A stretch of DNA of 64,000 nt from Rhynchopus sp. YZ270_cl-10 (lineage: Eukaryota; Euglenozoa; Diplonemea; Diplonemida; Diplonemidae). The stretch is from contig OZ037903.1 of the NCBI GenBank assembly GCA_964035575.1, forward strand, positions 1,079,001 through 1,143,000. The letters run 5' to 3'. The translations under genes and the position numbers were made by a program. This document shows, in pieces, positions 6,524 through 63,922 of the stretch (position 1 is the first letter of the stretch; every line of letters starts with the position of its first letter). A model generated the notes under the pieces. It ran no database searches and was not told where the DNA came from. It was given only the letters and a program-made list of their open reading frames with translations.

Positions 6524-6552
6524 GTGCCTGCGTCAGAGGCGTTTGCATCACC
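6524..6552 (+). repeat. Family B stem-loop, copy 1
   Basis: Short-loop form: GTGCCTGCGTC, loop AGA, then GGCGTTTGCA. It sits 22 nt after the stop codon of the first gene and is followed by a T tract. Confidence 0.65.
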
Positions 6553-6729
6553 TTTTTTTTGACAATATTTTCACCAATTTTAATCCATGGACGGTTGTTA
6601 GCCTTTTTTTTTTTTTTTTTTTTTTTTTACTTGGTATTTACTCTCGTCTCTTTAGCGCTGCCGAAGCAGTGTGGCTGCTCTTTTTTTTTGTTCTAACATT
6701 ATTCAAACATGCCTTTTTTTAGTTGATTT

Positions 6730-6862
6730 CCTGCGTCCACCGATGTACGGTAGTGTTTTAAAATCGCCACCCTTCTCTTTTTCTAAGGGGCACGTTGTAC
6801 CCAAATATCCACCTTTTTTACGTCACCCCGGTTGTCCGGTGAGGCGTTTGCACACTTTCTTC
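6730..6862 (+). repeat. Family B stem-loops, two degenerate copies
   Basis: 6730-6760 keeps only the left half (CTGCGTCC, then CCGATGTACGG). 6824-6862 keeps the right half (CCGGTGAGGCGTTTGCAC) followed by a TC-rich tail. Confidence 0.45.
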
Positions 6863-7237
6863 TCTTTATGTTGATTTTCTTAGTTTGAGGGGGGGAGATC
6901 CAAGAAGGACGCTGTCCTCTTGTGATCTGCCGTTGTGTATCCATTTTACGTTAGGCATTTTGGAGGTTGGGTGGGGGGGTAGCGAGCATTTACATCTCCT
7001 TACCTACTCCTGAACCCCATATTGTTGATTTTTTTTTGTTCTTCTTCCCCTCCACCCTGCAACGACCCCCTGCTTCTTCAGGGCTTGTTTTTGCTCTCTC
7101 TCCTCTGTGCAAATAGAACCGCTTCCTTTACCAGGTTGTCTTACCAGGCTGCCCCGCGTTGGCGCGATATACACAGCTTATTCCTTTTTCTCTTCTTTTG
7201 AACTTTGTTGAAGGTTTTTTTTTATCGTTCTGTAGAG

Positions 7238-7350
7238 TGTTCATGCTCTGCGTCCCCAGAGGCGTTTGTACTGGCACTTCAATTTCCCTTTTTTCCAATA
7301 GCTGCGCCCCGCCGATGAACGGTGAGGCGTTTGCACAAGTTCTCTTTTTT
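7238..7350 (+). repeat. Family B stem-loops, adjacent short-loop and long-loop copies
   Basis: 7238-7290 is the short-loop form (CTGCGTCC, CAGA, GGCGTTTGTA). 7300-7350 is the long-loop form, in which an extra small hairpin CCGatgaaCGG is inserted at the tip before GAGGCGTTTGCAC. Both end in pyrimidine tails. Confidence 0.65.
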
Positions 7351-7439
7351 TTTTGAAAATTTGGTACCGTAGACAGGATAAGCTACACCAAAAACCCTTT
7401 TTAAGTAACTGCTGATGAACACGATAACCTTTTGTTGTT

Positions 7440-7495
7440 TGCATCCAGCCGCTGTACGGTGAGGCGTTTGCACCCGTTTCAAGCTTTCTCTTTCT
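7440..7495 (+). repeat. Family B stem-loop, long-loop copy
   Basis: TGCATCC and GGCGTTTGCAC form the outer arms; the tip carries CCGctgtaCGG. The tail reads TTTCAAGC followed by a CT-rich stretch. Confidence 0.6.
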
Positions 7496-7646
7496 TGTCT
7501 GTTGTCGAGTCAATTCTGTTTAAATCTCGCCATGCGTGTTGTTCACCACCTTGCAGTAATTTTCTAACGTTTTGTTCATTCCTTGGAAGCAGTCGTCGGG
7601 CTGCGTGATTCATTTAAGTTTTCATTTTTTTTTGTTGTTGAGTAGC

Positions 7647-7690
7647 AGTGCCCTGCGTCCCAGAGGCGTTTTGCACTATCAACGTCATTT
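7647..7690 (+). repeat. Family B stem-loop, near-consensus copy
   Basis: GTGCCCTGCGTC, loop CCAGA, GGCGTTTTGCAC, then the tail ATCAAC and a T run. The outer GTGC/GCAC and inner GCGTC/GGCGT stems are both intact. Confidence 0.7.
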
Positions 7691-7710
7691 TTTTTTTTCT
7701 TCATTCTCTT

Positions 7711-7790
7711 TGTTTGGGTACATTTAGTGTACCGAAACAATATTATACCTTCTATTCAGTAGAATAGTTAGTATATGAAACAATTTTCTT
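7711..7790 (+). repeat. Family J repeat, copy 1
   Basis: About 75 bp, nearly identical to 19985-20057. It contains two small hairpins, GGTACA/TGTACC and CTATTC/GAATAG. Copy 2 lacks a few bases between them. Confidence 0.7.
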
Positions 7791-7935
7791 CATTTTTTTT
7801 GAGGTGGCTTACGTTCATCTGATACACTCTTCTTCTTGTTTTTGTTGAGTGATGATATCATCTAGACAAACAACTCGCTCTCCCCATTCATGCTCCGTTC
7901 TGTATGCTGTTTTTTCTTCTTCTTTTTCTTTTTGA

Positions 7936-7985
7936 GATGTGTGTCCCAAGAGACACCTTTTTGTTCATCTCGCAAACCTTCTTAC
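7936..7985 (+). repeat. Family C stem-loop
   Basis: Inner stem GTGTC/GACAC around the loop CCAAGA; GATG and CATC form an outer pair with a longer right-hand spacer. The tail holds CAAACCTTC. Confidence 0.5.
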
Positions 7986-8120: not shown

Positions 8121-8167
8121 GCACTACACACGCCCACGAGAGGTGTTTGTAGTACACATTTCAAGCC
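8121..8167 (+). repeat. Stem-loop of the ACGAGAG superfamily with unique stems
   Basis: Outer stem ACTAC/GTAGT, internal loop, inner stem ACGCC/GGTGT, loop CACGAGA, then ATTTCAAGC. The stem bases differ from families A, B and C, yet the pairing layout is the same. Confidence 0.55.
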
Positions 8168-11400: not shown

Positions 11401-14400
11401 GCACCCTCTTCGGTGGGCCCGCAGAGGGGGAAGCAAAATTTTTTTGCGAAGGCGAAACACAAAAGCATGTTGGCCGCTTTATCCATCCCTGTTGCAGAAG
11501 AGGTGGAGCCTGGACACGAAGATGACGAAGTGCTGCCACAACCTTCCCCAGTATCCTGCATCTCTGCAACGCCGAAGAATTCAGGGTCTCCTGCGATGAA
11601 ACGCAAAAAATACGGTGTGTTTGATGCAGAAGATAGGGACGAACCGTTGCTGGCATTAGGGGATGACCGAGAAGAGGAGGAGGAGGAGGAAGAGGAGGAG
11701 GGGGAGGAAATTCTCGAGCGTGCCTTCTTCTGTATTAGCGGTAGGAACGTTGTGCGGCGGGTGCTGCGGAGGGTTGTGACGCATCAGGTGTTCGAGGTGG
11801 GGGTGTTGTTGTTGATTCTGGTGTCTACTGTGTTTATCACATTGTGGCGTCCGTTGGAGCCCCCAGACACACCAAACAACCAAATGCTGGATTCCGCGAA
11901 CATCGTGGTGACCGCGCTCTTTGTTCTCGAGGCTGTGTTGAAGATTATCACCTTCGGGTTTGTGATGCACCGTAGCTCCTATTTGAGAAGGGAAAATGCG
12001 TTTGTCTGGAATTTTCTTGATTTTTTCATTGTAGTGACGTCGCTTCTCAGCTTTGTTGGCCCTGATTTGGTGTTTTTCCGGATTCTTCGCGTTCTCCGGC
12101 CCCTCCGCTTTATCAACAGATCAGAAGGGATGCGTACTGTTGTGCATGCATTGGTCGGGTCGCTTCCTGCGGTGGCGAATGTGATGTGCATAACGCTTCT
12201 TGTATGGACAGTCTGCGCGATTATGGGTGTACAGCTGTTTGGAGGCAAATTCTACGCCTGCAGTGAAAGCGCTTGGGGTGACGTTGGGGGTTTGGTGACG
12301 TACCGTGGCGTGGTGTACGACTTATCTCAGAGAAAAGGGTGCTTGGAGTACCCGGGAGCGGAGTACCGTTGGAGCACATATCCGTCAAATTTCGACAACG
12401 CGCCGGAAGCGCTGCTGTCGCTGTTTCATGTGGCAACGGTGGAGGGGTACTCAGACCTGCTGCACCTCGCTATGGATGGTGTTGGGTATGATGAGGCGCC
12501 ACAGAAAAACCACAATGCGTATGTCGCAGTGGCGTTTTTTGTTGTGTTCACCTTCATCGGTTCGTTCTTCGTGAAGAATCTGTTCATCTCTGTGTTGCTG
12601 GACACATACTATGTTGAAGACCGCCGCCGTGCAAAGAAAAGCCTGCTTCTCTCCGACAAACAGAAGAAATGGGTGCAGTCCTACAGAGAAATGCTAAGGG
12701 GAGTGTCGCGACCACCAGAGTTCTTTTATGATACACATTCGCAAACCCCACGCTATGTTGCGAGGAAGGTGGCAGGGTGGAAGCACTTCGAAGTGATGAT
12801 CCAAAGCGTCATCGTACTGAACGTTCTGATCATGGCAACCGAGCATTATGAGCAGACACCGTTTTGGGATATCCTTCAGAACAGCGCGGATATTACCTTT
12901 GTTGCGATATTTACTCTAGAATTTGCGGTGAAGATGATTGCGCATGGTGCCAAGGGGTATTTTGCACAGAGGTGGAACCGCTTCGATTGCTTCATTTTGG
13001 TGCTCTCTTGGGTCGGCTTCATTGTTGTCATGGCAACCTCTGTTAGCGTAGATGTTTCAGTATGGCGGATCTTGCGTTTAGCTCGTCTACTTCGCCTTGT
13101 GAAGTGGGCCAAGGGGATTACCTTGCTCCTGAAGACATTGTATCTGGCGCTACCGCTCATGTTGAATGTTACAGCAATCCTCGCGCTTCTTTATATAGTG
13201 TATGGGGCAATAGGTGTCCGTCTCTTCGGCAGAGCCAGCAGAGGAAGCGGTATCACAGCGAACGCAAACTTTGAGTACTTCACGACAGCGGTTGTGACCC
13301 TCATCAGGGTCTCGACAGGAGAGGGGTGGAACAACCTGATGACCGCATACCGGCGGGATTCCCCGGAGTGCGACGCGCAGTTGGATGGGTGTGTGTCGAC
13401 CCCGGTGGTGGTAATCTATTTTGTGTCCTTTATTGTGGCGTCTGGGGTATGTTTTTTTCGCATTTCTTTATGGTGACTAAGCGCGAGAGGCTTAGGATCA
13501 TCTTATAAACTTTTCTTTATTTTCGCAAACGCATTCTGCACAATGCCATAACACATCTTCTCACAGTTTGTCCTGCTGAACCTATTCATCGCAGTGATCC
13601 TTGATGCCTTCCAAGAGGTCGTCCAAGAAGCCCGCTTCGAAGGTGAGCTACGCAAAGCCGACATGAAAGGCTTCAAATCCGCATGGAAACGGAAGGACCC
13701 GAAACAGACGTTCCGAATGAACGCAGCGGACCTGCCGGAACTGCTTCGTGAGATCGGACCTCCGATGGGTGTCAACAAGGACACAGAGATGCACCATGTG
13801 TGGGATGAAGTTTCCGAGCTCGACCTCTATGTATGTACCCCTCTGAACAACTGCATGATGCAGATTAAACAGTTGAAAGTGGAGATTGTCACAACCGAGA
13901 CAACTACACTTATCACATTTATAAAAAAACAAATAAAAGCTACTTTCCAGAGTTGAGGACGACTTCCGTCTATATCTTTTTAGTACAATAGCCTTCGGGC
14001 GACATTGAGTACAGATCCTGCACTAGCAGGTGATTGTCGACACAACAAAAACACCCAAACACCAAACAGGCCACAAACGGCTTCGTCGACATGCAGCCTC
14101 TCCTACAAGCATTGTTCTCGCGTCTCCACGGCACCTTGGAGGACCTAAGGCTGCCAGACGTGATTGTCCAGACTGTGGCTATTAAGGTATGTCACCTAGC
14201 TTGCGTGCCTCTGTCATTGCGTTCTTAACAGGCGGATGTGAGGTTTCAAGCACGGCAACGTGAGGAGCGATACAAGGAGCAGGGCTTCACGAAGATACCT
14301 ATTCATGCGATTGTAGGGCTGGTGAAGGCGCAGGCCAGCGTCCGGGGCATGCTTGTTCGGAATAAGATCCGCAAGAACTACTTCAGCCAGAAGACAAAGC

Positions 14401-14546: not shown

Positions 14547-15068
14547 AAAATAGGTGGGATGAAAATGGGCATTTTTATGGGAGCAGAAACCTGTTCTCAA
14601 AACTAGTATATAAAAGAAACTCTTGTTCAAAGAGGTTGTGCGTTTTTTGTTTTTGTTTTTGTTTTTGTTCCAATTTTCGTTTTCTAGTACCTCTGCTGGA
14701 GAGACGTTTCGTATCTTGTGTGTACTTTTTTTTTGGGGGATGTAGTGAGGTCTGGACAACATTTTCCATACGAAAACCTCTTGAAACGAAACCATGCAAA
14801 ACCACAAACAAACAACTATTACGGAACCACCCCTTTTTGCATGGTACCCCAGCAACAATTCTATGATATTGTGAGTTTTTCGTCCGGCGTCTTTTTTTTT
14901 TCTCGTTTTTTTTCAATCCGTATTTTTTTTGTGGCCAAGTGTCGCAACTCTTATATTCGTATCGTACGCTTGGTATAGGTGCCCGTATTGTGTATCGTGA
15001 AGCAATGTTGTGTGAGTGCCCATGATGGCCCCATTACTTCATTGCCTTCACCTGTTTTGTTAGGGTGT

Positions 15069-15168
15069 GGTGTGTATGAGAGACCCATTCATTTTTCATG
15101 TTTTTTTCCCCTTCTTTGCACAGAGCCTGCATCCCAAAGGTATCTCCACGTTATCAACTTTACCTTTT
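15069..15168 (+). repeat. Family C-like and family B-like stem-loops
   Basis: 15069-15110 (TGTGTATGAGAGACCCATTCA) is a weak family C copy. 15126-15168 (GCCTGCATCCCAAAGG, then ATCAACTTT) is a diverged family B copy. Confidence 0.45.
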
Positions 15169-15591: not shown

Positions 15592-15670
15592 GTCCGCGTG
15601 CTTTCATCGGATGGCTGGCATCGTGCAGTCGGTCAGAGGTGTGCCTGTATCAGTAACTAATCTCTCTTTG
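15592..15670 (+). repeat. Family H repeat, copy 1
   Basis: GTGCTTTCATC-GGATGGCTGGCATCGT, then GTCAGAGGTGTGCC and a TATCA box. The same order of blocks recurs at 16392, 36179 and, shortened, at 55480. Confidence 0.55.
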
Positions 15671-15842
15671 CTGAGTGTGGTGTTGGCAGGTAAGGACAGT
15701 TGTTATTAGGTGAACCCTGTGTTCTTTTCTAAAAGGAAAAAAAAATAAATGTGGTGTGACTGAATAAGGGGGCGCAAAAAGTGCGCAAGAAGTGCGAATC
15801 ACCCTCCTTCAGACACCCCAATATGGGCGGTAGTAAAGAACT

Positions 15843-15888
15843 GTGTGTGCCTGAGAGGTACATTCGTGTTACCAAGTTTTCTTTCATT
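15843..15888 (+). repeat. Family C stem-loop
   Basis: TGTGTGC, loop CTGAGAG, GTACATTC, then ACCAAGTTTTC. The inner stem pairs through a G-U wobble where other copies have G-C or A-U. Confidence 0.55.
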
Positions 15889-16391: not shown

Positions 16392-16492
16392 TCTACTGTT
16401 GTAGCCCGCAGGGTACTTTGTGCTTTCATCCGGATGGCTGATCGTACGTAGGTCAGTCGGAGGTGCCTGCATCAACCACAGTTTATTATGGT
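16392..16492 (+). repeat. Family H repeat, copy 2
   Basis: Blocks: TGTTGTAGCCCGCAGGGTA, TGTGCTTTCATCCGGATGGC, GGTCAGTCGGAGGTGCCTGC, ATCAAC. The centre contains the palindrome ATCCGGAT. Confidence 0.6.
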
Positions 16493-16933
16493 ATAGTTGT
16501 ATCTGCCATGCACCTATATAAGGGAGGGGGTCTTACTTTAAACACCTCTGGTGGCGTAGCGTTCTTTTGTGTCAAATCTAACAGTTTGACCCTCTCTGAG
16601 AGGGGGGCGGAACAGCTGGTGTCGCTCCTTAGCGTTGTGCACAGAACAACTGACAAAAAAAAAGAGGTGTTCTAGTTGCCTTCCCGTTTGTGCAAAATAT
16701 ATTAAAATCTTTATACCAATTGAGGTGTAAAGTGAGTGTCGATAACAAAAAAAAGACAAACATACGCATAACCCAAACGTGCCGAACGAGAATTGAAAGA
16801 ATGAAAACTCCCCCCTTTTTTTCTTCTCACAGTACCGCCCTAATAAAACATATTTCTTGAGACTCAGATACCAACCTCAAAATGGATGTAGTACTGCATG
16901 GGGTCCACCCCGGTGCACCCGTCAATGTACCAA

Positions 16934-16990
16934 GGTACACTGTTCACGAGAGGGGGGGGTTTTTTTTTTTGTATTTCAAATCAACTTCAT
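16934..16990 (+). repeat. Family G stem-loop
   Basis: GGTACACTGTTC, ACGAGAG, then a G run and T run replacing the usual GGCTT, followed by TGTATTTCAA and ATCAACTTC. The copy is interrupted by homopolymer growth. Confidence 0.5.
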
Positions 16991-17017
16991 TTGATTAACG
17001 GACACTCACCCCACCTC

Positions 17018-17065
17018 TGCATCATGAACTCGACCGAGCTGCGTTTCTTATGTTTCAACTGACGA
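17018..17065 (+). repeat. Family F stem-loop
   Basis: GCATCATGAACTCGACCGAGC then TGCGTTT and TGTTTCAACTGACG. It is diverged from the other three family F copies at 19681, 35820 and 63485. Confidence 0.5.
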
Positions 17066-17266
17066 CGCTCACCTCTCCCCTCCAACCCCACTCCATACCC
17101 CACCCACTTTCCCCATTTTCCAGAAAAGCAAAACACTCTTTTACACGAATTTCCCACCTCCTCTCTAGCCCCTTTCTATTGGGAATTCACTGTTTACTTT
17201 TCCCCGAAGATTGTTTAGGGTAGTATTTACCCCTTTAGGACCCTACCACTACACAAAGACTGCCTG

Positions 17267-18054: not shown

Positions 18055-18530
18055 GAAGAGAACAAAAAAGAGATTTTTTATAATCTCTGTATCAAATTTT
18101 ATCCCATCTGGAGTTGGTTTTTTGAGGCAGCAGTCACGTAAAACCTTGCTCTTTGTTTTCTTTCCTTCTTTTCTGGTGTTTTGCATCCCTTTGGATTTTT
18201 CCGGAGAGATGCGCACAACATTTCTTGTCTATTTTTTTTGTTTTGTTTATTTGTTTTGTATCAGAGACCACACACCTCAACGCTTTATTATTCACTGGTA
18301 GTGGTCTTTTGAATTTCTGATTTTCTTTGTTCATTCTTTTTAAAAAACCTTCTCACATTTTGTAAACCCTTTTTATGCATTTCTTTCTGTTCTGTTGAGC
18401 ACCAAGACTTCTTTTGACCTCTGAGGAAAAGAAGAAGTTCTTATTAGAATAATCGAACGCAAACTGAAAGAAAACCGGGTGTAGAGAGTTGGGAGGAGTA
18501 TTTTTGCATCGCGCTAAAAAACTAAAATAA

Positions 18531-18665
18531 TATAGTGCAGCACACTCGTCTAGGGTGGCTACACTTTAACACGGTGGCCTGACGAACCCTATTTTGGGCT
18601 GCCCCACTACGAACGTACCTTGAGGGTTCGTACAGGCCACCGTGAATACAACCAAGTTTTCAAAA
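18531..18665 (+). repeat. Family D repeat interrupted by a hairpin insertion
   Basis: AGTGCAGCACACTC, TAGGGTGGCTACACT, then an insert (18570-18644), then AATACAACCAAGTTTTCAA. Uninterrupted copies are at 21617 and 62970. Confidence 0.75.
18570..18644. mobile_element. 75-bp hairpin insertion within family D
   Basis: Arms CACGGTGGCCTGACGAACCCT (18570-18590) and its reverse complement (18623-18644, one extra base) enclose a 32-nt loop. Only the arms are palindromic. No exact target duplication is evident. Confidence 0.7.
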
Positions 18666-19561: not shown

Positions 19562-19630
19562 TTCTTTTTGGATGTATCATCCTTTGCACTTTCTGTTCTT
19601 TGATTGGAAAGTGCATGAAACTATTTTAAA

Positions 19631-19679
19631 GATGTGTGTGCACGAGAGGCACATTCATCTTATAAATTTTCTTCTTTTT
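19631..19679 (+). repeat. Family C stem-loop, reference copy
   Basis: GATGTGTGTGC, loop ACGAGAG, GCACATTCATC, then TTATAAATTTTCTTC. Outer GATG/CATC and inner TGTGC/GCACA stems are separated by a small internal loop. Confidence 0.75.
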
Positions 19680-19680
19680 T

Positions 19681-19730
19681 TTGCATGAGCTCGACTGAGA
19701 TGCGTTTTATCATGTTTCAACTACTCTTTT
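19681..19730 (+). repeat. Family F stem-loop, copy 2
   Basis: TGCATGAGCTCGACTGAGA then TGCGTTTT and TGTTTCAACTACTC. GCAT/ATGC is the outer stem. It directly follows a family C copy. Confidence 0.65.
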
Positions 19731-19984
19731 TTTTTTTTTTTGCTTCTTTCTTGAAGGTGACTGTACTAAGGATCATCTCAACATCTTTTTTTTTTTTTTT
19801 ATTGTCAGCCCATATAATCCGTACCAACGAGGATAATGCTATTTTTAAGAGGTAAATTTTACTGGCTGTAACCTCACGGACTTTTATTAATGGGTACATG
19901 AAACTTTCTTTTCCAAAAAAAAACATAAAAAAACGAGTCACGTCACTATCAGAAACAAACAATCCACATAAAGTAAAAAAAAAA

Positions 19985-20057
19985 AGTTTGGGTACATTTA
20001 GTGCACCCTATTATACCATCTATTCAGTAGAATAGTTAGTATATGAAACAATTTTTT
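19985..20057 (+). repeat. Family J repeat, copy 2
   Basis: Same order as 7711-7790, with GTGCACCC in place of GTGTACC and a short deletion. The CTATTC/GAATAG hairpin is preserved. Confidence 0.7.
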
Positions 20058-20205
20058 TGCACAAAAGTGGTGATTTCGGAAGTCGGTCAACGAGATGTCG
20101 GCGACCTGTCAATATCAGGGAGGTGTGTATAAAGTCCCTGTGTCAGCGACCTGTCAATATCGACCCCTCCCGGAGCACCAAAAATGCTATCATTCTGCGA
20201 CTAAC

Positions 20206-20300: not shown

Positions 20301-20733
20301 CATGGAACACCTCAGTAGGAGACCGTGCGCATATCGCAGCTGTCCTCCCTTCACAACTCCCTTTCTCTTTCGTTTGTCATATGAGAGTACGGTATACCAT
20401 GTTTCAAGTTCCCCTTTCTGTGCCTGCATTCTGTCGAAGTGGTAAAAGGAAGAAAAACGCCTTCTTTCCCCTGATCACCCCCACCTCATGCTCCGTTGCA
20501 CGTTTTTTCTTCTTTACATTTACTTAAACGACGTGCGACGCGAAATGGCTTGAAGGAGCGAAACAAAAAGTGTTCGGGATAAATTTTTCTAAATTCCACG
20601 TTCTTTTCTGCTTTTTGCTGATAAAAAAGAAATGTGGTAACTACCCAACACACTCTTTCTCTTGGTCGTAGATGTGCATCCTTTGCTTGCACATTGAGGT
20701 AATATGCATCTTTTGCGCGAACTTTTCTGATAA

Positions 20734-20787
20734 GGTGACTAAGCACGAGAGGCTTAGGATCATCTTATAAACTTTTCTTTCTTTTCG
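20734..20787 (+). repeat. Family A stem-loop, reference copy
   Basis: GGTGACTAAGC, ACGAGAG, GCTTAGGATCATC, then TTATAAACTTTTCTTTC. Inner CTAAGC/GCTTAG and outer TGA/TCA stems have a 2-nt GA bulge. Confidence 0.8.
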
Positions 20788-20887
20788 TTGTATGCCATTC
20801 TGGTGCATTGCTTCTGTAGAAGCGTTTTTTTTGCCCTATAAAAACTTCTCCTCCTTTAAGATGTAAGACACATGATATCTCAAGTTT

Positions 20888-20930
20888 TTGATGTACACGA
20901 GAGGTACATTACAGCTGTCAAAATTTTTCT
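20888..20930 (+). repeat. Family C stem-loop with changed inner stem
   Basis: ATGTAC, ACGAGAG, GTACAT gives a perfect 6-bp inner stem. The G-C pair of other copies (TGTGC/GCACA) is here A-T (TGTAC/GTACA), a compensatory change. Tail CAAAATTTTTC. Confidence 0.65.
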
Positions 20931-21552
20931 CTCTGAATGGAAAGTACATAAAAATTGGTTTCTTTTTTTGGGCCTTTTTTTGACATTTTTCCACCAGTCT
21001 TTTTTGCGACTCTCGAGTAAGGCGATTCTTTTCCTGGTGAATATCCCCCAGTTGTTCTCCACTAAAATAGAAAACAAAGAAATGGCATTGTACAAGATGA
21101 GTGTATTCATTACATTCAAATTTTCCTCCCCCTTTTTTGCGAGCATCAGTTAAAAAACATACAAAGTGATAACCCTTACCCCGTAAGGTAGAACCTCGTT
21201 TTTTTCTTCTTTCGAAACGTTTATTGTTTTTGCATATCATTGTATTTTTTGTGCGAATTACAATTTTACTCTTCTCTTTTCTCGCAGCTTCTCTTTTGAT
21301 ATTTCTTTGTTGGCCGCCTGGTTTACACATTGTGTCAAACCCTCTTAACCCCAACATTATCATTCAAAAGAAAAGAAGTGAAAAAAAAAATCATCTACGA
21401 AAACCAGGCTATATCATACATTCCAAAAAACCGTATCCTTTTTTTTTTGACAAAAAAAATTCCTCCATACTCGCTCGACCTAGCGAATGATGGTGCGCTT
21501 CAACGGTATCAATTTAATGTGGGCTCCAAAAAAAACAGGATTTTTTCAAGGC

Positions 21553-21588: not shown

Positions 21589-21616
21589 CGAGTAGCAATA
21601 ACACACAAAATACTAT

Positions 21617-21666
21617 ATAGTGAAGCACACTCTAGGGTGGCTATACTAATACAACCAAGTTTTCAA
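21617..21666 (+). repeat. Family D repeat, copy 2
   Basis: AGTGAAGCACACTCTAGGG, TGGCTATACT, AATACAACCAAGTTTTCAA. It lacks the insertion seen at 18570, so it shows the empty form. Confidence 0.75.
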
Positions 21667-21720
21667 CAAAACAAACGATTGATGAATAAACCAAAGAATA
21701 ACCTCAGACTAAGCATCCTC

Positions 21721-21775
21721 AGATCAGACTGGGCACGAGAGTGCTTAGGTTCATCTTGTAAACCATTCTTTTTTC
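21721..21775 (+). repeat. Family A stem-loop, diverged copy
   Basis: GACTGGGC, ACGAGAG, TGCTTAGGTTCATC, then TTGTAAACCATTC. Pairing is weaker than in the reference copy. Confidence 0.55.
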
Positions 21776-22267
21776 AGGCTTTTTTTTTGATAAAACAACT
21801 TGTTGTCAATTCTAAAAAGATTGGAGGCAGCGCTGCAGGGCAAACAAAACGGATTGAAAAAAACAGAAGCTTGCTTGTTTTCTTTGAGTACTCAATTAAC
21901 CACAACAACCGTACTTCAGTTTAACACATTTTTTCACCTTTTTGTTTTCCCGGCTTTGAGCGCACAAACAAAAGACCCGATCTTTTTTTTTAAATACGGC
22001 CATTCTTGCAATGTATTGATATGATTACCTACCTATAGCAGTTGTATGTATACTGTTGCCGCAGCCCCTTCCCCTGCCCCTTTCATGTGTTTTTGTGCCT
22101 TTTTTGTCTTGGTTCAATTCTTTTCTCTATTTCTCTCTAGTCTTTGGCTTTCAGAGCGTTCCGCCGTTGTGGGTGATTATTTTTTGGGGTGCGAGACTAC
22201 TGTTAGGAATCTGACCCATTTTCTTGGAATTCCCATTAGTTTCAAACCCCAGGCGTTCCATGGTAAA

Positions 22268-22306
22268 GATGTGTGCGCGAGAAGGCATCATTCATCTTAC
22301 AAAAAA
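22268..22306 (+). repeat. Family C stem-loop
   Basis: GATGTGTGCGCGAGAAGGCATCATTCATC followed by TTACAAAAAACTT. The next base begins an inverted-repeat element. Confidence 0.55.
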
Positions 22307-22308
22307 CT

Positions 22309-22411
22309 TACCGTAAACCGCAACAATAGTTGACCGTAAAAAATGTGAAACATTTTCAGTTTTTGGGGAGCGTGGAAACATTATTACGGTACACTATTGT
22401 TACGGTCGGTA
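22309..22411. mobile_element. Fold-back element
   Basis: Left arm TACCG-TAA-ACCGCAACAATAGT...ACCGTAA; right arm is its near complement without the TAA. About 33-nt arms, 103 bp overall. The terminal TA on each side could be a target duplication. Confidence 0.55.
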
Positions 22412-23251: not shown

Positions 23252-23290
23252 ATAAGTCACGAAAGGGCTTTGTATTTCAAAAATCAGTTT
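23252..23290 (+). repeat. Family G stem-loop
   Basis: AAGTCACGAAAGGGCTTTGTA then TTTCAAAAATC. The left arm has lost GTACACTG. Confidence 0.45.
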
Positions 23291-24646
23291 TTAGTTTTAT
23301 TCGTGACAGAGTCTTTAGAAGTAATCCCCTTTTAAAATTTTCTTTTCTAAAAAGATGGGAACATTTTTGTTGATCCCTCACCATATACTATCAATGTATT
23401 GATTGCATATGATGGAAAATTTTTTCTTCTATTTTCTTTTCGTTCGATGGACCGTACGTATCTCTCTAAATATTCCTTTTAGAGGTCAGAAAGGTGTGTC
23501 ACATTTTTTTTTTCGACCTTGTTTTGTTCTTCTGGGAAAAAAGGGAGTGCAGTTGTTGGTGCAATCTCCACTCCTTTTTTTTCCTTCTCAAAAATAAAAA
23601 AACTGATGCTCTTTTTCCATTTGTCCCTCCCGCAAAAAAAAGCAACTGATTATTGAAAACTGGCAACACCTTTAGTTGTCTATAACCCAATGAACATTTG
23701 TCCCTCCCCCCAATTGTTTGCCCAAACTATTCTTTGCTGCGAAACTCTATGTTTTGCCGTCTTTCTCTCATACAGTATTTTTTTTTTGCTTTTTTTTTTT
23801 TCGTTCTTGGAAAAAAACACGTCCCTTTTATAATGCGAGATGATTATTCTATTGTATCCAGTGCTCCTTCTTTTGGCCGTAAAACAAAGAAATTAATGGA
23901 ACATTTTTATTAAAGGTGTCCACACCTTCAACTTCTCTTTTTATTTGGTACAGATGAGTAACGCAAAAAAAAACGCAGTGTTACGCTTCCATCCTTGTTT
24001 TACAATATCAAAAGAACTCGGTGTGTGGGAAATGTAGGGGGAATGGAAAGTACCGTACAAGAACTGACACGCCTTTTCTTGTGGTACGTTTCCTGCCCCA
24101 CGGCCCAGCTGAGGTATCATCTTATAAAGCCATTTTCCTTTCATTTTTTTCGTGTTTTCCTTCAAATAACAAAAACGGTCATCTCCTTTCCTCATTTCCC
24201 ATGAATCTAACTCATTTCCCGAAACCATTCACCTCCCCCCTCCGCCACTATTGTTCCTCCCCGGATTAGTGGCTCAGGGATTGGCTCCACTACAGCCTTT
24301 TCCACGCAGCAAAGAAAACGGGGGAGGACGCACCCCAGCCGGAACGAACGACTCGCAGTCCCCTCATAATTTTAGTTCCCCGGTGTCTCCAATGATCTTG
24401 GTGTGTTTTTTTCGTTGTGTTTCCACTCAAACAACCCTACCCTAGCACACACACACACAGAATCGGAGGGAAAGGGGTAACGGTTTCCCCCACATACACA
24501 GAAGGGTGCGAACAGCACTTGGTACACACAGCACAAGGCAGTACTGGGGCGGGGGTGGGGTCTTGTATTAGGGATCACACATCCGCTGAGTCCCCACAGC
24601 CTCCCACCACCTCTCGCACCGACAACGTGCTCGGCACAACGCCACA

Positions 24647-26767: not shown

Positions 26768-26937
26768 GAGGAGGGGGGGGTTGTTTTTTGTGTTCAAGAA
26801 CTGACTTAAGATCTCAGCGACTTTTACTGTCAGTAAATGGACAATTGGAGGTTCTTCGGGGGGTCGAATATCTCAACCCCCTGAAAGGGGATGTGGGAAG
26901 TTTGATTGGAATTTGAGATTTGAAAATGTTGGGTTCA

Positions 26938-26993
26938 GGTGACTAAGCACGGAAAGGTTTAGGGTCATCTCACCAAACATTTCTTTCTTTTCC
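26938..26993 (+). repeat. Family A stem-loop
   Basis: GGTGACTAAGC, ACGGAAA, GGTTTAGGGTCATC, then CACCAAACATTTC. The loop has changed from ACGAGAG. Confidence 0.65.
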
Positions 26994-27332: not shown

Positions 27333-27632
27333 CCCTCATGCACGGTGGAGTCCGCCCCAAAAGGGACCGCCCATTTTGGGCTGATTCCACCCGAGTGTAC
27401 TGCCGTTTTATTCAGAGGGTATTGCGCCACATCAAGTGAAGCCCAATCCTATCCTTTTGTGTCACCTTTTTGTTTCCAGTTTTTTTGCATGCTGTTATTA
27501 CTGGATGTAGAAACCGGCGTAAAATCGAAGTTTCTCTCCCCCTCATATTCCCCAAAAAAAAAAATCATCGAAACAAAAAAATCCTCCCCACTTTTATCCA
27601 AACCCCTTTCCCTTCCAACTCCACTTTAAATA

Positions 27633-27668
27633 TTCACTGTCATAAGAGGGCTTTGTATTTCAATTTTA
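27633..27668 (+). repeat. Family G stem-loop, partial
   Basis: TTCACTGTCATAAGAGGGC, TTTGTATTTCAA. The loop reads ATAAGAG. Confidence 0.5.
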
Positions 27669-28641: not shown

Positions 28642-29345
28642 GTGTTGGAGGTGGAGGTGAGGTGGAAAATCTGTTATGTTAGCGTCCTCATCTGAGCATC
28701 ACCGCCTGTCGATTGTAAAGGTGGCGAAGCGAGAGTCGTAGAGGGTTATCTCAGTCTCGTGTTTTGCATTCTTTTCGTTTCGTCAAGAAAAGAATGTATG
28801 AAATAATAGATGAGTGTGGCGAGGCATCTTCATCTTTCCAACTTTTGTTCTGTATCTAGCCTTCGAATGGGGAGAAATGTGTGTGTTTTTTTTATAAAGC
28901 CCCGCCAGGTATTGCATTTGCTCATCTTTCTTTTCTCCTTCCCATCAATTTTTTGAACTGTATTTGTAGATTAAACACAATGCTGGCATTTATTTTGCAA
29001 TGTTTTTCCCCACCTCAAATAGCTCCCTCAACTCTCACCCAACTACACTACTCACCCAGATTCTACACAAAACACTGAACACACTAAAAAAAAGCTACGG
29101 CAAGCAAACCTATACAACCTTTAGGTTACTGATCAACAGACCCATTAAGGTCGTCTTTATCAACCTATCCTTTCTCCCCCCTTCCGCTCGCATTGGTTCT
29201 ATTTGAAGGCATTGTTACGGAGATTCTTGAAAAAAAATTGTTAACGTAAAACGGTTCCCTAGATTCTAGCAAAACGGCGAATTTATTGCAAAATACGTTG
29301 AAGTCAACAGAGTTTCGTTTGCGGTGTTGGAGTTAACAAAAAACG
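28642..29345 (+). other. Spacer
   Basis: Apart from the hairpin at 28767-28796 I see no gene or repeat family. The sequence becomes A-rich towards the next start codon. Confidence 0.5.
28767..28796 (+). terminator. Hairpin downstream of the C2H2 gene
   Basis: Perfect 10-bp stem CATTCTTTTC/GAAAAGAATG with a 10-nt loop, 125 nt after the stop codon. A role in 3'-end formation is speculative. Confidence 0.35.
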
Positions 29346-30032: not shown

Positions 30033-30535
30033 GGAGCATGTGTACGTCGACGTATTTATAAAATAGCGGAAATACTGAAACTTTAAATCTGGCTCCATCT
30101 GTTGCAGTGTCGAAACAACATCGTTGTATGTGCATACGTCCGTCGAGGTGTGTGCACTCTGATCCCTTCATGTGAAGTACAGTTCCACGAGACTTTTTTT
30201 TTCTTCGACCCCACGCTTTTGCGCTTTTCGGTGCAAACACAAACAAATCACACTTTCCAATTTCTTAACATTTCCACCACCTCACCTCATCCCACCCCAC
30301 CCCCCTCCCCTTCAACTCTACCAAAGGAAAACACCCCCCCTTTCACCCCCTCATGACTATGTAACGAATAAGCAACATAAGGGCCCATCCAGCTACACCA
30401 AAAAGGGAGTTAAAAGACAACCGATCTGCCACACCAATTAGCGCACAAGGACGCATCACTTTTCTTTGGTGGCTAAAGAGGTGGCTGAGGAGGCTTAGGA
30501 TCATCTTACAAACTTTTCTTTCTTTTCCCTAAGGG
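30033..30535 (+). other. Spacer ending in a family A copy next to the following gene
   Basis: C- and T-rich. It has a small palindrome TACGTCGACGTA at about 30041-30052 and the family A copy described next. No gene. Confidence 0.55.
30468..30533 (+). repeat. Family A stem-loop abutting a start codon
   Basis: GGTGGCTAAAG ... GGAGGCTTAGGATCATC, then TTACAAAC, TTTTCTTTC and TTTTCCCTAAG; the ATG of the next gene begins 2 nt later. The tail reads like an AAC box, a pyrimidine tract and an AG acceptor. Confidence 0.7.
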
Positions 30536-31511: not shown

Positions 31512-31610
31512 CGCCTTGTGATAACCTCGTGGAGAGAACGAGATATCAGGGGTTGTTTTATTTTTGTGCCCCTTTTTCCAGATCATATACCATTTTTTGA
31601 ACCAAAATAG

Positions 31611-31662
31611 TGACTAAGAGGACACAAGAGGTCTTTCTGATCATCTTTTCCAACTTTTTCTT
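31611..31662 (+). repeat. Family A stem-loop, diverged
   Basis: TGACTAAGAG, ACACAAGAG, then TCTTTCTGATCATC and CCAACTTTTTC. The inner stem is weakened. Confidence 0.5.
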
Positions 31663-31720
31663 ATGTGTATGCCGCCCAATCGGTAAGCTCCTTTCTCTTT
31701 CAATTTCTCGTTTATTACAA

Positions 31721-31822
31721 GGTGACTAAGCACGAGAGGCTTGGGATCATCTTATAAATTTTTCTTTATTTTTGGTGTCTCCGTCCACAGAGGCGCTTTC
31801 ACCTCGAACTACCAACTTTTTT
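31721..31822 (+). repeat. Family A copy followed directly by a family B copy
   Basis: 31721-31772 is close to the family A reference (CTAAGC, ACGAGAG, GCTTGG). 31774-31822 is family B (CTCCGTCCACAGAGGCGC, then CCAACTTTT). Confidence 0.7.
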
Positions 31823-31832: not shown

Positions 31833-31870
31833 AGACACCCTGTCACGAGAAAGCCTTGTATTTCAAGTCA
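31833..31870 (+). repeat. Family G stem-loop
   Basis: ACACCCTGTCACGAGAAAGCC, then TTGTATTTCAA. Confidence 0.5.
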
Positions 31871-31939
31871 AAAAAATGTTTTTTGTTTTTCGCACGCCAC
31901 GCGCCCACAGTGGCGCATCTCAGCCATTTTTTTCTCGCA

Positions 31940-32171: not shown

Positions 32172-32306
32172 CTACTTCTAGACGTGCACAATCCTTATGA
32201 GGCCGTTTATCTAGACAAAAGCCTTCTATTTTTCTTGTTGTCCATCGTGGAGGGGGGAATCATTTTGTTTTGGGTAGCGTAAAGGTTCCTTGTTAACAGT
32301 GTCACC

Positions 32307-32358
32307 TGCGTACCACCGATGTACGGTGAGGCGTTTGACACGTTTCAGCTTCTCTTTG
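32307..32358 (+). repeat. Family B long-loop copy
   Basis: CCTGCGTACCA, CCGATGTACGG, GAGGCGTTTGACAC, TTTCAGC. The tip hairpin CCG/CGG is preserved. Confidence 0.65.
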
Positions 32359-32414
32359 TTTTGACAGCATTATTATTGGTACCTTTTGTCACCCTTTTTT
32401 TTCTTCTCCTTGAA

Positions 32415-35819: not shown

Positions 35820-35932
35820 TGCATGAGACTCGACTGAGATGCGTTTTAGTACGTTTAGCACGTTTCAACTGCTCTTTCTTGTAATGTGTCTGCGGTCCGC
35901 CGATAAACGGTGCGGCGTTTTGCATCGTTCGG
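35820..35932 (+). repeat. Family F copy followed by family B long-loop copy
   Basis: 35820-35880: TGCATGAGACTCGACTGAGA, TGCGTTTT, GTTTCAACTGCTC. 35884-35932: TCTGCGGTCC, CCGATAAACGG, GCGGCGTTTTGCAT. Confidence 0.65.
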
Positions 35933-36108
35933 CTGCATTGAATATTGTTCGTTTGTTCCTTCAAAGTTTGCACTCCTTCCCCTCCCGTGAGACAAGGGAA
36001 AATGGGTGGCCCTGACGTTTTGACCCCATGATGCCCTTAGACCACATAAATTTGCCTTTGTTTCCCTAGATACAATCTTGTACTAGGGGTTTTTCCGTTC
36101 TTCAAAAA

Positions 36109-36178: not shown

Positions 36179-36275
36179 TCTGTTGGCCGGAGGGTGTTTT
36201 TGTGCTTTCATCCGGATTGGCTGGCATCGTATGTGGGTTAGTCAGAGGTGTGCCTGCATCAACTACCATTTCCTT
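36179..36275 (+). repeat. Family H repeat, copy 3
   Basis: TGTTGGCCGGAGGGTG, GTGCTTTCATCCGGATTGGC, GTCAGAGGTGTGCCTGC, ATCAACTACC. Confidence 0.6.
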
Positions 36276-36899
36276 TTGCTCATTGAATCAACAAACAAAA
36301 TTACGACGACGCACATTTTCAAGCGTTCTCATATTTTTTTGTTCAAATAAACGTTGACACGAGAGTAGAGATCCACGCACAGTTCGTCGGTTGCACTCAT
36401 ATTTTTTGTGTCGTTTTTCCCCCAAAAAAAGAAGAAAAAAATAGGTTGTGGTCAATAGTCAAATTTACCATCGGGCAAAAAGCCCCAATGTTTTGTCCAC
36501 ATCAAAAAGAGTTTCTTTAATCTGCGTTGCGCGTTATGACATTGTTTATGTTTGTTTTTTGTGCGTGTTTAGGGGGTATTTTTTATCTCTTTTGCCGCAC
36601 ATCCTCCTTTCCCTGACACATTGCTACGCAAAACGCGCATCCAGAGAAGACAATAACTACCTCAGATTGATGTTACGAACACAACCCCACAAAAAAAACC
36701 TCCCCTTGTACCACCCCCCGAAATGTAGTCATATCATCGCCAGAAGGTTTTTTTGTTTCGTTTTTAAACCAATTTTTGGTGGTCCTGAGCGAGGCTGTGG
36801 CTCCCATCTCTAACCAGTATTTCCTAATGATGGCAGTATTATGAGAGCCCATTGGAATACGCAAAAATACATCAAAAAAAATACATCACAATACGTATT

Positions 36900-53807: not shown

Positions 53808-53872
53808 AAGACCTGTGCTCTATCAACGATGGTAATGGCACCCTGTGAGTAGGTTCAAACAAAGAAAAAAAA

Positions 53873-53920
53873 TAGTGGAGCACACTCTAGGGTGGCTACA
53901 CTGATACCAAGTTTTCAAAG
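53873..53920 (+). repeat. Family D repeat
   Basis: AGTGGAGCACACTCTAGGG, TGGCTACACT, GATACCAAGTTTTCAA. The AGTG/CACT and ACTC/GGGT stems are intact. Confidence 0.75.
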
Positions 53921-54125
53921 AAAAAGGAAAAAAATGGTAGTTATTCGGCATGGCCTTTTGCCCTGTGGTGTTTTTCAGCTTTTCTTAAAACGAAAGGTAG
54001 GTACAAAAGACCTCCGCTAACTCCGAAGCCCAAAATATGTTTATGGGGTGCGTAAAAAAACAAACAAAAGATTCATAACAAATGATACACTTTCCACCAT
54101 TTTAGTGTTGTTTATATAGTTGGAA

Positions 54126-55046: not shown

Positions 55047-55178
55047 ATCCTTCGGGCGACCTTCTGTACAAGAACCCATCCTCGGATAGGGTGATCTTGT
55101 CGATAACAAAAAACAGAGTGACAGTGGAGATTGCACAACTGTGGGCAACACAACCGAGGCAACTACACTACTCCAACA
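55047..55178 (+). repeat. Family I element (copy 3) and its companion box
   Basis: 55047-55107: CCTTCGGGCGACC ... ACAAGAACCC, CCTcggatAGG, TCTTGTCGA. 55118-55178: GTGGAGATTG, AACCGAGGCAACTACACTA. The order is the reverse of that in the channel intron. Confidence 0.6.
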
Positions 55179-55199
55179 ATTTATCAAAAAGAAAAATAT

Positions 55200-55225: not shown

Positions 55226-55314
55226 AAAAAAAAAAAAATAGCAGCAGCTCCAGTATGAGATGATTACTACAGCAGCGGAGGTTTAGTTCATTCGTCTTGT
55301 ATCATATTTTTCAA

Positions 55315-55370
55315 GGTGACTAAGCAACGAGAAGCTTTGGGTCACCTTGTATAACCTTTTCTTTTATTCC
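55315..55370 (+). repeat. Family A stem-loop
   Basis: GGTGACTAAGC, AACGAGAA, GCTTTGGGTCACC, then TTGTATAACCTTTTC. The outer GGTGAC/GTCACC stem is longer than usual and fully paired. Confidence 0.7.
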
Positions 55371-55479: not shown

Positions 55480-55590
55480 TGTGCTTTCATCCGAATGGCC
55501 GAGGTGTACCTGCATCAATAAACTATTCCTTTTTTAAGCTAGCAAAAAAAGTGGCTTAAGCGCTGCCAGGCTTAGGTTCATCTTACAAAA
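55480..55590 (+). repeat. Short family H copy followed by a family A-like copy
   Basis: 55480-55532: GTGCTTTCATCCGAATGGCC, GAGGTGTACCTGCATCAATA. 55551-55590: GTGGCTTAAGC, GCTGCCAG, GCTTAGGTTCATC, TTACAAAAC. Confidence 0.55.
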
Positions 55591-56124: not shown

Positions 56125-56127
<3 letters not shown>

Positions 56128-56273: not shown

Positions 56274-56475
56274 TCTGTTGTTGACCGCAGGGTATTTTTT
56301 TTTATGCTTTCTCATCCAGAGAGCTCTCATTGAATGTGAGTCCGGAAGGTGTGTCTGTATCAACTATTCCTTCCTTTCAGCTTCCTTCCACCCTCTGTTG
56401 TTCTTTTTTGTGTTTTCATCTGAATAGCTCTCACTGAATGTGAGTCCGGAGGTAGTTGGCGTGAGCATCTCTGGA
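56274..56475 (+). repeat. Two tandem family H-like units
   Basis: 56274-56380 and 56393-56475 share TCTGTTGTT, TTTTCATC and GAATGTGAGTCCGGAGG-like blocks. Unlike other H copies they carry a CTCTCA...GAATGTGAG hairpin. Confidence 0.55.
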
Positions 56476-62763: not shown

Positions 62764-62969
62764 AATTGTGTAGGAATATAAAAAAAAATCCCCAAATAAC
62801 GCAGTTGGAAGAACATCGAGACCGCAGCAACGCACTACCTCGAGAAGCATTCGATCGAAGCTGTCCAAAAAGGGTTTGGCCCGTTGGTGGAGTGATGAGA
62901 GAGAGGAGGTGTGGAGGTGAGGTGGGGGAGGGTGAGGGCGATGGGTCGATGCAAATAAAAGAAAAAAAT

Positions 62970-63020
62970 ATTGTGGAGCACACTCTAGGGTGGCTACACT
63001 AATACAACCAAGTTTTCAAA
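62970..63020 (+). repeat. Family D repeat, reference copy
   Basis: TGTGGAGCACACTCTAGGG, TGGCTACACT, AATACAACCAAGTTTTCAA. Confidence 0.8.
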
Positions 63021-63140
63021 TATTAAGGCGTTTGTTTTTGTGTGAAGTTTTTTTTGTCTCCAGTTAGTAGCTGTTTTGTGTTTTTGTTTTTTTTTTAAAG
63101 ACTAGGTTTGGAGCCCAAATCTGGCCGGGCGAGCTGCTTA

Positions 63141-63168
63141 AGGTGTGTCAAGAGAGGTGCATTTTTTT
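63141..63168 (+). repeat. Family C stem-loop, short
   Basis: GGTGTGTCAAGAGAGGTGCA followed by a T run. Confidence 0.45.
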
Positions 63169-63400
63169 TGAGATTGTCTTGAGATTCCCTTTTTTTTGCT
63201 ATCAAATTTGAAGAAAAGCAAGTTGTCAGAGACAGAGAGAGACAGCATGCGTAGGGGTACGATCAGGGATTTTTTTTTTTGGGGGGGGATGTACTGGGGA
63301 GTTTTCTCCACACACAGTGGTAGATGTCCATTTGTGACCGCGTCTTTGCTATCGTGCGATTTTGCGCCCATTCATGCATTTTTTTTTTCTCTTTTTTCTG

Positions 63401-63450
63401 GGCCTGCGTCCCAGAGGGCGTTTCCACTGTTCAGCTTCACTTTTTTTTAA
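63401..63450 (+). repeat. Family B stem-loop
   Basis: GCCTGCGTCCCAGAGGGCG, TTTCCACTGTTCAGC, TTCAC and T run. A second, truncated TGCGTCCAGACG lies at about 63794-63806. Confidence 0.65.
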
Positions 63451-63484
63451 ATTTTTATTTTTAGTCCCCACCCTTTGCATGCTT

Positions 63485-63599
63485 TGCATGAGTTCGGCTG
63501 AGATGCGTTTTCGCACCTGTCAACTACTCTTTTCTTGGTGCATGTGTTGACCCTCTCAAATACTTTCAATTCTGTGAAGGTATATGAATCTAAATTTTT
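63485..63599 (+). repeat. Family F copy followed by a damaged family E copy
   Basis: 63485-63535: TGCATGAGTTCGGCTGAGA, TGCGTTTTC, GTCAACTACTC. 63552-63599: family E that has lost the ACTGAA of the right arm, so the stem is broken. Confidence 0.65.
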
Positions 63600-63878
63600 G
63601 CATTCTCTCCGACTTTTCCAAAAAAAAAAAAAAAAACGGCCAAAAAACGAGCGAACTATCCTCACTCTATATTTTTTTTCACGATTATTTGATTGAGTTC
63701 CCGGACGATAAACGATTGTGGAAAATGTGTTGTATCTGTTCAGGTTTCCTTTCCTGGGGGGGGGGCTCGATTTATCCCGCGGATCATCAATGGCTGCGTC
63801 CAGACGTTTTTTGTTTTGTTTTTTTGTTTTCGTTTTTGCAAATCTGCACCCTTTTTTTTTTTCTCTTCTCGTTGTGAG

Positions 63879-63922
63879 GTTTTGTGAGCACAAAGGCGCA
63901 TTCATATTGTCCAACTTTTCTT
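63879..63922 (+). repeat. Family C stem-loop, diverged
   Basis: TTGTGAGCACAAAGGCGCA, TTCATATTG, CCAACTTTTC. The loop differs from the consensus. Confidence 0.4.

Follow-up and report, generated by a model that had tools for sequence, protein, structure and literature searches.

Sense-strand families of short elements

Do the short stem-loops that recur along one strand of this DNA act as RNA, and if so, in what capacity? The question is raised by a stretch of 64,000 nucleotides (nt) at C71:1079001-1143000 (hereafter, the window), part of an assembly of 152.4 Mb in 126 contigs, where a sequence-only reading had counted roughly 40 plus-strand copies built on one plan. We take the host to be probably a diplonemid. 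Introns in the window are short, eukaryotic and of the GTATGY...AG type, as read from the sequence, and a Diplonema spliced-leader (SL) pattern occurs at 706 places in the genome with at most one mismatch, many of them in tandem clusters, versus 0 for the reversed control (here and below, the same pattern read backwards). Diplonema papillatum is reported to have polycistronic gene arrays, SL trans-splicing and a median 3' untranslated region (UTR) of ∼800 nt (PMC10161547). All nine of the window's non-overlapping frames that reach 300 codons are on the plus strand.

Seeds for the families were taken by pattern from the sense strand, and profile search (nhmmer) over both strands then extended them; the sense-strand words that led to them were TCATCTTA (26:1, sense:antisense), GAGGCGTT (30:3) and AGGTTCAT (19:0). 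Besides the window, we sampled 20 loci at round positions of contigs C1-C5, chosen by us and half of them from C1. Families A-I were analyzed in the window and 18 loci (244 kb), and a covariance model of family A, R1, built from 16 hand-typed copies of the same sample that was later searched, was run over 264 kb. Gene strand was assigned by open reading frames (ORFs) of at least 300 codons in the window and 17 loci. Locus L027 has no such ORF and was provisionally set to plus, its best coding-like stretch being on the opposite strand; counts are also given without it. The strand counts omit L029 and L036, which have long ORFs on either strand, and the palindromic family K (ACTTTCAATTCTGTGAACTGAAAGT; 5 plus and 2 minus matches at E < 1e-3). 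Family J had a single seed and was dropped.

The nine families A-I comprise 147 merged elements at E < 0.01 in the 244 kb, 42 of them in A and 26 in G, and the 7 copies of a tenth family, L, are all sense and include one in L027. Forty-nine of the merged A-I elements fall in the window, every one on the plus strand (before merging, 44:0 plus:minus at E < 1e-3 and 53:0 at E < 0.01), which bears out the earlier count. The strand preference extends to the genes: A-I matches at E < 1e-3 run 138:1 sense:antisense, or 131:1 without L027 (window and 17 loci), and equal orientations were not seen. If the genes of L027 lie on the minus strand, its seven matches become antisense and the ratio becomes 131:8. 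At L027:836-1615 (minus), a coding-looking ORF of 259 codons lies opposite the local elements and is either a lone reverse gene or a chance frame. The single antisense match belongs to family C, at antisense position 4001 of L019. R1 gave 37 matches at E < 0.01, including 35 in strand-assigned sources (34 without L027), all sense, and its three antisense matches are at chance level (E 1.7 to 5.8). The elements are almost entirely restricted to the RNA strand, as are UTR elements with a conserved loop; the placement in both orientations expected of randomly inserting DNA transposons or miniature inverted-repeat transposable elements was not found (131:1).

Orientation across the genome

The copies are also well above chance in number. 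Four exact patterns were counted in the genome: GGTG-N22-TCATCTTA (2,687 places versus 3 reversed), GTGC-N19-GCACTATCAAC (656 versus 0), GGNTCATCTTATAAACTTTTC, the tail of family A (1,870 versus 0), and AGATG-N18-21-TTCATCTT for family D (1,231 versus 3). The short word GGCGTTTGCA occurs at 3,943 places versus 390 reversed. From 98 elements in 180 kb (the 18 loci outside the window), a rough estimate for the genome is 83,000 elements, 27,000 of them A. One pattern was searched in viral contigs and gave 0 matches.

Placement was followed over the first 100 places listed per pattern, on contigs C1-C17 at most. Over these places element orientation runs in megabase blocks: strand switches separate only 7 of 94 adjacent pairs for the A tail and 16 of 89 for D, and in neither case were any of 10000 random assignments as low. 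The control repeat TTTCCGGAATCCGTCCGG switches at 46 of 84 adjacent pairs, as random assignment would. This control is a dispersed repeat found at 54578-54682 of the window; its word has 527 exact copies, in both orientations.

Contigs C3-C12 and C14-C16 each show one orientation switch among the listed places (few on some contigs), with minus on the left and plus on the right, apart from a lone D place of reverse orientation on C5 and, on C9, a place that is palindromic. Extra orientation blocks are seen among the listed places of C1, C2 and C13. At C1:2838651 and C2:189919, two of the 100 listed GGCGTTTGCA places stand against their block; about a tenth of this word's matches are expected by chance. 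The single-switch contigs look like two divergent transcription arms. An orientation that follows whole chromosome arms, with one such switch on many contigs among the places listed, might also be that of polar DNA signals, of which KOPS and Chi sites are bacterial examples; such signals would mark chromosome direction and be read on the DNA by a factor acting in replication, segregation or transcription. Orientation alone cannot separate the direction of transcription from that of replication. However, the compensatory pairing and conserved loop of family D (below) are RNA features, and we regard DNA signals as a most unlikely explanation.

A shared plan, and pairing maintained in family D

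Elements of families A-I measure 22-75 nt in the window; the whole unit is ∼40-75 nt, shorter where degenerate. The usual plan is a two-part hairpin, in which an outer stem and an inner stem are separated by a small internal loop or bulge. The loop, or its 3' edge, is often ACGAGAG or CAGAGG, and the hairpin is commonly followed by a box (TCAAC, ATAAAC or CAAG) and then a U-rich stretch. In non-coding sequence, the sense:antisense ratio of TCAAC upstream of a T-rich stretch is 49:6 and that of ATAAAC 17:2, compared to 34:25 for TAAC. The stems quoted by the sequence-only reading are present, for example at 20732, 7647, 19629, 20884 and 8121 of the window.

In the consensus of A, a 2-nt bulge separates seven outer pairs from an inner stem with its loop, and ATAAAC and TTTTC follow. 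That of B has outer and inner stems on either side of a 2x2 internal loop, followed by ATCAAC; C is B plus an extra apical hairpin; and D pairs AAGATG with CATCTT outside and TGTGC with GCACA inside. By our reading, B and C would have a common outer frame with different tips, as would G and L, and A and D would have loop and tail in common with different inner stems. Compared to dinucleotide shuffles, the consensus sequence folds better in families A, B, C, D, G and L (z between –2.2 and –3.9) and only weakly so in H (z –1.8). Among the 4227 families of Rfam, none matched the window at gathering score, and matches in 19600-21800 were only far below the cut-off; no known RNA family was recognized on this basis.

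To leave variation unbiased, the inner stem (for D, the interior) was left free in the searches used for covariation; the statistics treat copies as unrelated. In family D, where AGATG and TTCATCTT were fixed, copies on average pair better with their own 3' halves than with swapped ones (mean –8.93 versus –7.63 kcal/mol for 97 distinct copies; z –5.9, with 0 of 200 swaps as good). The same was seen for the 46 copies that diverge strongly from both consensus sequences under a cutoff of our choosing (z –4.0, 0 of 300). In 47 copies of equal length, the fraction of paired cells is 0.715 versus 0.662 (equalled in 5 of 5000 column shuffles and 20 of 5000 whole-arm permutations), and doubly changed paired cells number 21 versus 12.1 (15 of 5000 shuffles), and two positions show A-U in place of G-C, each in 6 rows. 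When partners are slid by –2, doubly changed cells are more numerous (28 versus 21) and paired cells fewer (0.579 versus 0.715); we put this excess down to TG repeats in the stem. The best-kept free positions, above those of the stem, are a loop A (42 of 47) and a loop G (41 of 47), as would be expected if a protein reads the loop while the stem is free to vary. Compensatory change maintains pairing in the D class, and significantly so.

Sense orientation and compensatory pairing together argue that the elements act as RNA. In kinetoplastids, gene-specific control is largely post-transcriptional, and long one-directional gene arrays imply that it must be so here. The reading we prefer, to which we give about an even chance, is that these are cis-acting structured RNA elements, bound by RNA-binding proteins in the pre-mRNA and 3' UTRs of polycistronic transcripts. 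One or a few such proteins would read the loop, 3' arm, box and U-rich tail; the bound elements would tune RNA stability, processing or translation for the gene in which they lie; and the several families would be variants recognized by the same or related factors.

Placement of the elements relative to genes

The elements of the window are listed below by coordinates, strand, description and source (for A elements, mostly R1). Included are degenerate and sub-threshold hairpins and the one unit absent from the listed model matches.

6524..6558, plus, B element, 23 nt downstream of the stop at 6501 (nhmmer)
6728..6756, plus, C element, degenerate (profile search, E 5.9e-3)
6817..6871, plus, C element (profile search)
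7243..7286, plus, B element (profile search)
7296..7354, plus, C element (profile search)
7434..7493, plus, C element (profile search)
7647..7694, plus, B element, AGTGC..GCACT then ATCAAC (profile search)
7716..7790, plus, H element (profile search)
7934..7985, plus, D-like hairpin GAGATG..CATCTC (R1 E 6.6, sub-threshold)
8121..8165, plus, unit with outer ACTAC/GTAGT, inner ACGCC/GGTGT, loop CACGAGA, then TTTCAAG (sequence; not among listed model matches)
13470..13520, plus, A element in intron 13447-13566 of the ion-channel gene (R1; intron ends read from sequence)
15063..15112, plus, D element (profile search)
15600..15667, plus, I element (profile search)
15839..15887, plus, D element (profile search)
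16422..16488, plus, I element (profile search)
16932..16991, plus, F element (profile search)
17016..17071, plus, E element (profile search)
18526..18571, plus, G element, 5' part (profile search)
18644..18665, plus, G element, 3' part (profile search, E 2.5e-3)
19629..19678, plus, D element (profile search)
19680..19732, plus, E element (profile search)
19754..19795, plus, A element, divergent (R1)
19990..20058, plus, H element (profile search)
20732..20782, plus, A element, near-consensus (R1, 79.4 bits)
20884..20934, plus, D element, inner stem TGTAC/GTACA (profile search)
21614..21669, plus, G element (profile search)
21727..21773, plus, A element, 5' arm changed (R1; 3'-half model)
22267..22309, plus, D element (profile search)
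23256..23293, plus, F element (profile search)
26937..26986, plus, A element (R1)
27632..27668, plus, F element (profile search)
28807..28850, plus, D-like hairpin AGATGA..TCATCT then CCAAC (R1 E 0.76)
30479..30523, plus, A element just upstream of the coding start near 30536 (R1)
31607..31661, plus, A/D-like hairpin (R1 E 2.4, sub-threshold)
31719..31769, plus, A element (R1)
31775..31822, plus, B element (profile search, E 5.7e-3)
31833..31881, plus, F element (profile search)
32303..32360, plus, C element (profile search)
35358..35400, plus, B element (profile search)
35473..35518, plus, F element (profile search)
35702..35748, plus, A element (R1)
35817..35883, plus, E element (profile search)
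35886..35943, plus, C element (profile search)
36204..36276, plus, I element (profile search)
53866..53921, plus, G element (profile search)
55122..55190, end approximate, plus, L element, G-related, AGTGGAG..CTACACTA then CCAAC (repeat alignment and family search)
55313..55364, plus, A element, outer stem AAGGTGA/TCACCTT (R1)
55483..55532, plus, I element (profile search, E 4.8e-3)
55550..55590, plus, A element, changed 5' arm still pairing, CTTAAGC/GCTTAGG (3'-half model; R1 E 0.1)
56310..56377, plus, I element (profile search)
56412..56469, plus, I element (profile search)
62964..63021, plus, G element (profile search)
63400..63446, plus, B element (profile search)
63483..63537, plus, E element (profile search)
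63875..63925, plus, possible D-like hairpin ending CCAAC, then T-rich (by eye, unscored)

Across the sample, 44 gaps longer than 400 nt hold 78 elements, spread throughout the gaps: 11 of the 78 lie in the first 300 nt of a gap and 10 in the last 300 nt, with ∼15 expected in each case (by hand arithmetic). Two shorter gaps, 374 and 377 nt long and flanked by coding stretches, are each an intron or a spacer and hold two elements apiece.

This spread bears on the idea that the elements are RNA-processing signals, either polyadenylation sites or trans-splicing sites in which the box would be branch point-like and the tail a polypyrimidine tract. Box and pyrimidine-rich tail do resemble a 3' splice-site region, and some copies lie shortly before an AG; one at 30479-30523 precedes a coding start, and L019 has another such case near 9556-9590 (sense). 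However, the first AG follows the 42 A matches at a median of 16.5 nt, compared to 18 nt after 792 other T-rich stretches, and the 10 elements within 300 nt of the next coding start fall below the ∼15 expected. Furthermore, the box with sense bias is TCAAC or ATAAAC rather than the branch point-like TAAC. The suggestion of the sequence-only reading that the elements may be trans-splicing signals is not supported by these comparisons, as neither of the two acceptor traits, a closely following AG (assessed for A only) and enrichment before coding starts, was found, and we consider a processing signal of either kind unlikely. Pairing of the element consensus sequences with SL RNA or U6 is at shuffle level except for D with U6 (14 nt versus a shuffle maximum of 12), which was set aside as a GT run and one of 14 tests.

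Precursors of small RNAs, small nucleolar RNA-like or other, cut from the polycistron would likewise be hairpins with a fixed 3' box, and one copy is intronic. Arguing against them are the Rfam results given above and the copy number, which is estimated at tens of thousands, with many copies near-constant in sequence; to our knowledge, this is far beyond any set of guide RNAs. Such precursors seem to us very improbable.

Evidence against the preferred reading, and a retroposon alternative

Several results weigh against cis-acting RNA elements, some of them relating to placement. Recognized elements are absent from 19 of the 44 gene gaps, and hence they are not a universal gene signal. One A element lies inside a 120-nt intron, that of the ion-channel gene. 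None of the 147 element midpoints falls in predicted coding sequence, where 63 were expected and where only the strand set as sense was scored; this favors our reading, but the absence is weak evidence because T-rich units with stops are unfit for reading frames anyway. Other repeats also favor one strand: with the elements masked, the sample gives 296 same-strand and 79 opposite-strand alignments, partly from tandem gene copies, and four control repeats run 6:3, 2:1, 5:1 and 2:2, a weaker control than the genome-wide one.

Other results concern structure. The E, F and I consensus sequences fold no better than dinucleotide shuffles (z +0.1, –0.6 and –0.1), so not every family is a convincing hairpin. 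In the inner stem of A, 0.885 of cells are paired both as observed and after shuffling (55 distinct rows of the 100 listed, one D-type row omitted). Single-sided stem changes in 95 A copies keep the pair in 13 cases and break it in 32, with transitions at 13:11, as without selection. Covariation within A was sought by three approaches and found by none. In a further search, with three outer pairs left free, we saw no compensatory pair by eye among the 100 listed copies. For B (26 distinct rows), paired cells are 0.892 versus 0.876 shuffled, which is not significant (301 of 2000 as high); there is one clear double change, and covariation here is suggestive only. The claim that the stems differ but stay paired, offered as a sign of selection on RNA structure, is one made across families; within families it holds for D, where own halves beat swapped ones, but fails for A and lacks significance for B.

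A third group of results concerns the 5' half. Models of the 3' half recovered 37 A copies with enough upstream sequence, and 15 of these are without the family 5' arm; by eye, 12 of the 14 listed 5'-anchored sense matches keep the 3' half (the list is incomplete, the copy at 13470 having been missed). Substitutions in A number 39 in the 5' arm and 19 in the 3' arm, counting its first bulge base (Fisher p 0.010). Either the core of the element consists of 3' arm, box and tail, or copies originate by truncation at the 5' end. Sequence upstream of 3'-anchored copies pairs modestly better than local controls, and only sometimes: the rank is at most 0.1 in 10/37 copies of A, 9/22 of B, 4/10 of D, 1/8 of F and 2/7 of I. 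For the 15 A copies without the family arm it is so in 3, which is not clear. Some divergent A copies form new stems, as at 55550 and 21727 of the window.

Constraint on A was counted in 95 of the 100 listed rows, five being dropped as too distant. One bulge base is nearly free (A40, T28, G25 and C2 of 95), and each of the other 21 free positions is 87-100% one base. Forty copies are identical over those 21 positions, and among them the bulge base is A in 21, G in 11, T in 7 and C in 1. We read this contrast as suggesting strong sequence constraint on the remaining positions, in keeping with the preferred reading; it could instead mark young subfamilies, which would tell against it.

Much of this would suit the main alternative, that the elements are very short non-autonomous retroposons, similar to short interspersed nuclear elements or to SIDERs, mostly functionless and often 5'-truncated, with a reverse transcriptase that reads hairpin, box and tail. 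On this account, A and B look as though copied from masters (40 of 95 A as above; 64 of 100 listed B copies identical, by eye), the 3' half is retained more than the 5' half and takes fewer substitutions, and pairs in A are not under selection. The sense bias would have to reflect either the way in which copies insert or the disappearance of antisense ones, the strand lock being otherwise unexplained, and the genome-wide control repeat, present in both orientations, indicates that random insertion does not yield 131:1. In addition, D copies are diverse yet paired, which we read as old copies under constraint. The duplicated gene gaps of L034, one tandem gene set, show no clean empty site, which speaks clearly for neither side. 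We hold retroposons to be possible but doubtful.

Other features of the window and sampled loci

The gene with the intronic A element encodes a four-domain ion channel (8464-13476, with four Ion_trans stretches). Its highest-scoring relative with a telling protist label is PhM_4, which we take to be a prokinetoplastid. ORF 1-3318 has a DUF7630 domain, and an open frame of 4,634 codons covers 37750-51654. Long inverted repeats at 17518-17641 and 36825-37112 have arms in common; the latter contains a tandem TACGCAACAAG array that is also present at 22494-22673. A 207-bp repeat at 21781-21987 is 99.5% identical to L025:3564-3770 and 96.7% identical to L028:426-635, on the same strand.

At ∼1479-2255 of L011, tandem SL RNA genes and a U6-like gene (the names are our reading) share one stretch; in D. 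papillatum, SL RNA genes are instead reported with 5S and U2 (PMC10161547). In L011, a hairpin in the SL RNA intron precedes CACAACTTTGTC; this sequence is similar to the box and tail of the elements and may be the Sm-type site of the SL RNA.

Comparison with known systems

SIDER1 and SIDER2 of Leishmania, some hundreds of bases long, are likewise dispersed non-coding repeats in euglenozoan directional clusters with a sense bias. They are reported at 1,853-1,986 copies per genome, with sense copies ∼4-fold over antisense in gene clusters and antisense copies enriched in spacers (PMC2689281), and as post-transcriptionally active via 3' UTRs (PMC2689281, PMC11520807). The elements described here differ in strand ratio (131:1), estimated number (tens of thousands), variety of families and the compensatory pairing of one class; a length of the SIDER type was not found, the conserved unit in the window being 22-75 nt. 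The signature of trypanosomatid retroposons has 79 nt, compared to a maximum of 75 nt for elements of the window. In Trypanosoma cruzi, 38 predicted structured 3'-UTR motifs of 28-87 nt are reported to be enriched in metabolic groups and to lie near the stop codon (PMC3728762). These too are short sense stem-loops proposed as sites for RNA-binding proteins, whereas the elements here have few families, apparently far higher copy number and a spread through the gaps. SIDERs are closest in behavior, and the T. cruzi motifs are closest in form.

The iron-responsive element is a UTR stem-loop with a conserved loop and a two-part covarying stem. It and similar elements share that design with ours, where covariation was established for the D class; the loop differs, the unit here includes a 3' box and U-rich tail, and copy number is genome-wide. 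The C. elegans Ur element of SL2 trans-splicing, which is intercistronic, combines a hairpin, a short box and U-rich sequence in a similar way, but here no relation to trans-splice sites could be shown. D. papillatum, probably of the same group, is alike in its polycistronic arrays, long 3' UTRs and many dispersed repeats, the most abundant of which is reported at ∼6,000 copies (PMC10161547). The main text of that report contains no words in hairpin- or palindrom-, and no description of strand-locked hairpin families was found there (PMC10161547). In the titles and abstract openings listed for the open-licence literature, we found no description of such elements for diplonemids or related euglenozoans. 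We would group them with the structured elements already known from the sense strand of polycistronic transcripts, among which their scale and strand lock are unusual.

Implications

A wider proposal, which we advance tentatively and at rather less than an even chance, is that the elements form a strand-locked, genome-wide code in diplonemids. Tens of thousands of small structured RNA modules would fall into some ten families, interchangeable and of a common plan (hairpin, NCAAC or ATAAAC box, U-rich tail). They would have arisen or been retained on the transcribed strand alone, and would together make up the layer of post-transcriptional control in a genome whose long gene arrays run in one direction. 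Part of this set would evolve by compensation and part by master copying, as a repeat class that lives at the level of RNA rather than DNA.

A short, countable and strand-locked class of elements, partly compensatory, offers a direct experimental handle. Its orientation is also a read-out of transcription direction from bare DNA, and by itself suggests a single switch on many contigs. Should the sense bias turn out to stem from mechanism and not from selection, copying would have to occur at the RNA level, an even more surprising outcome.

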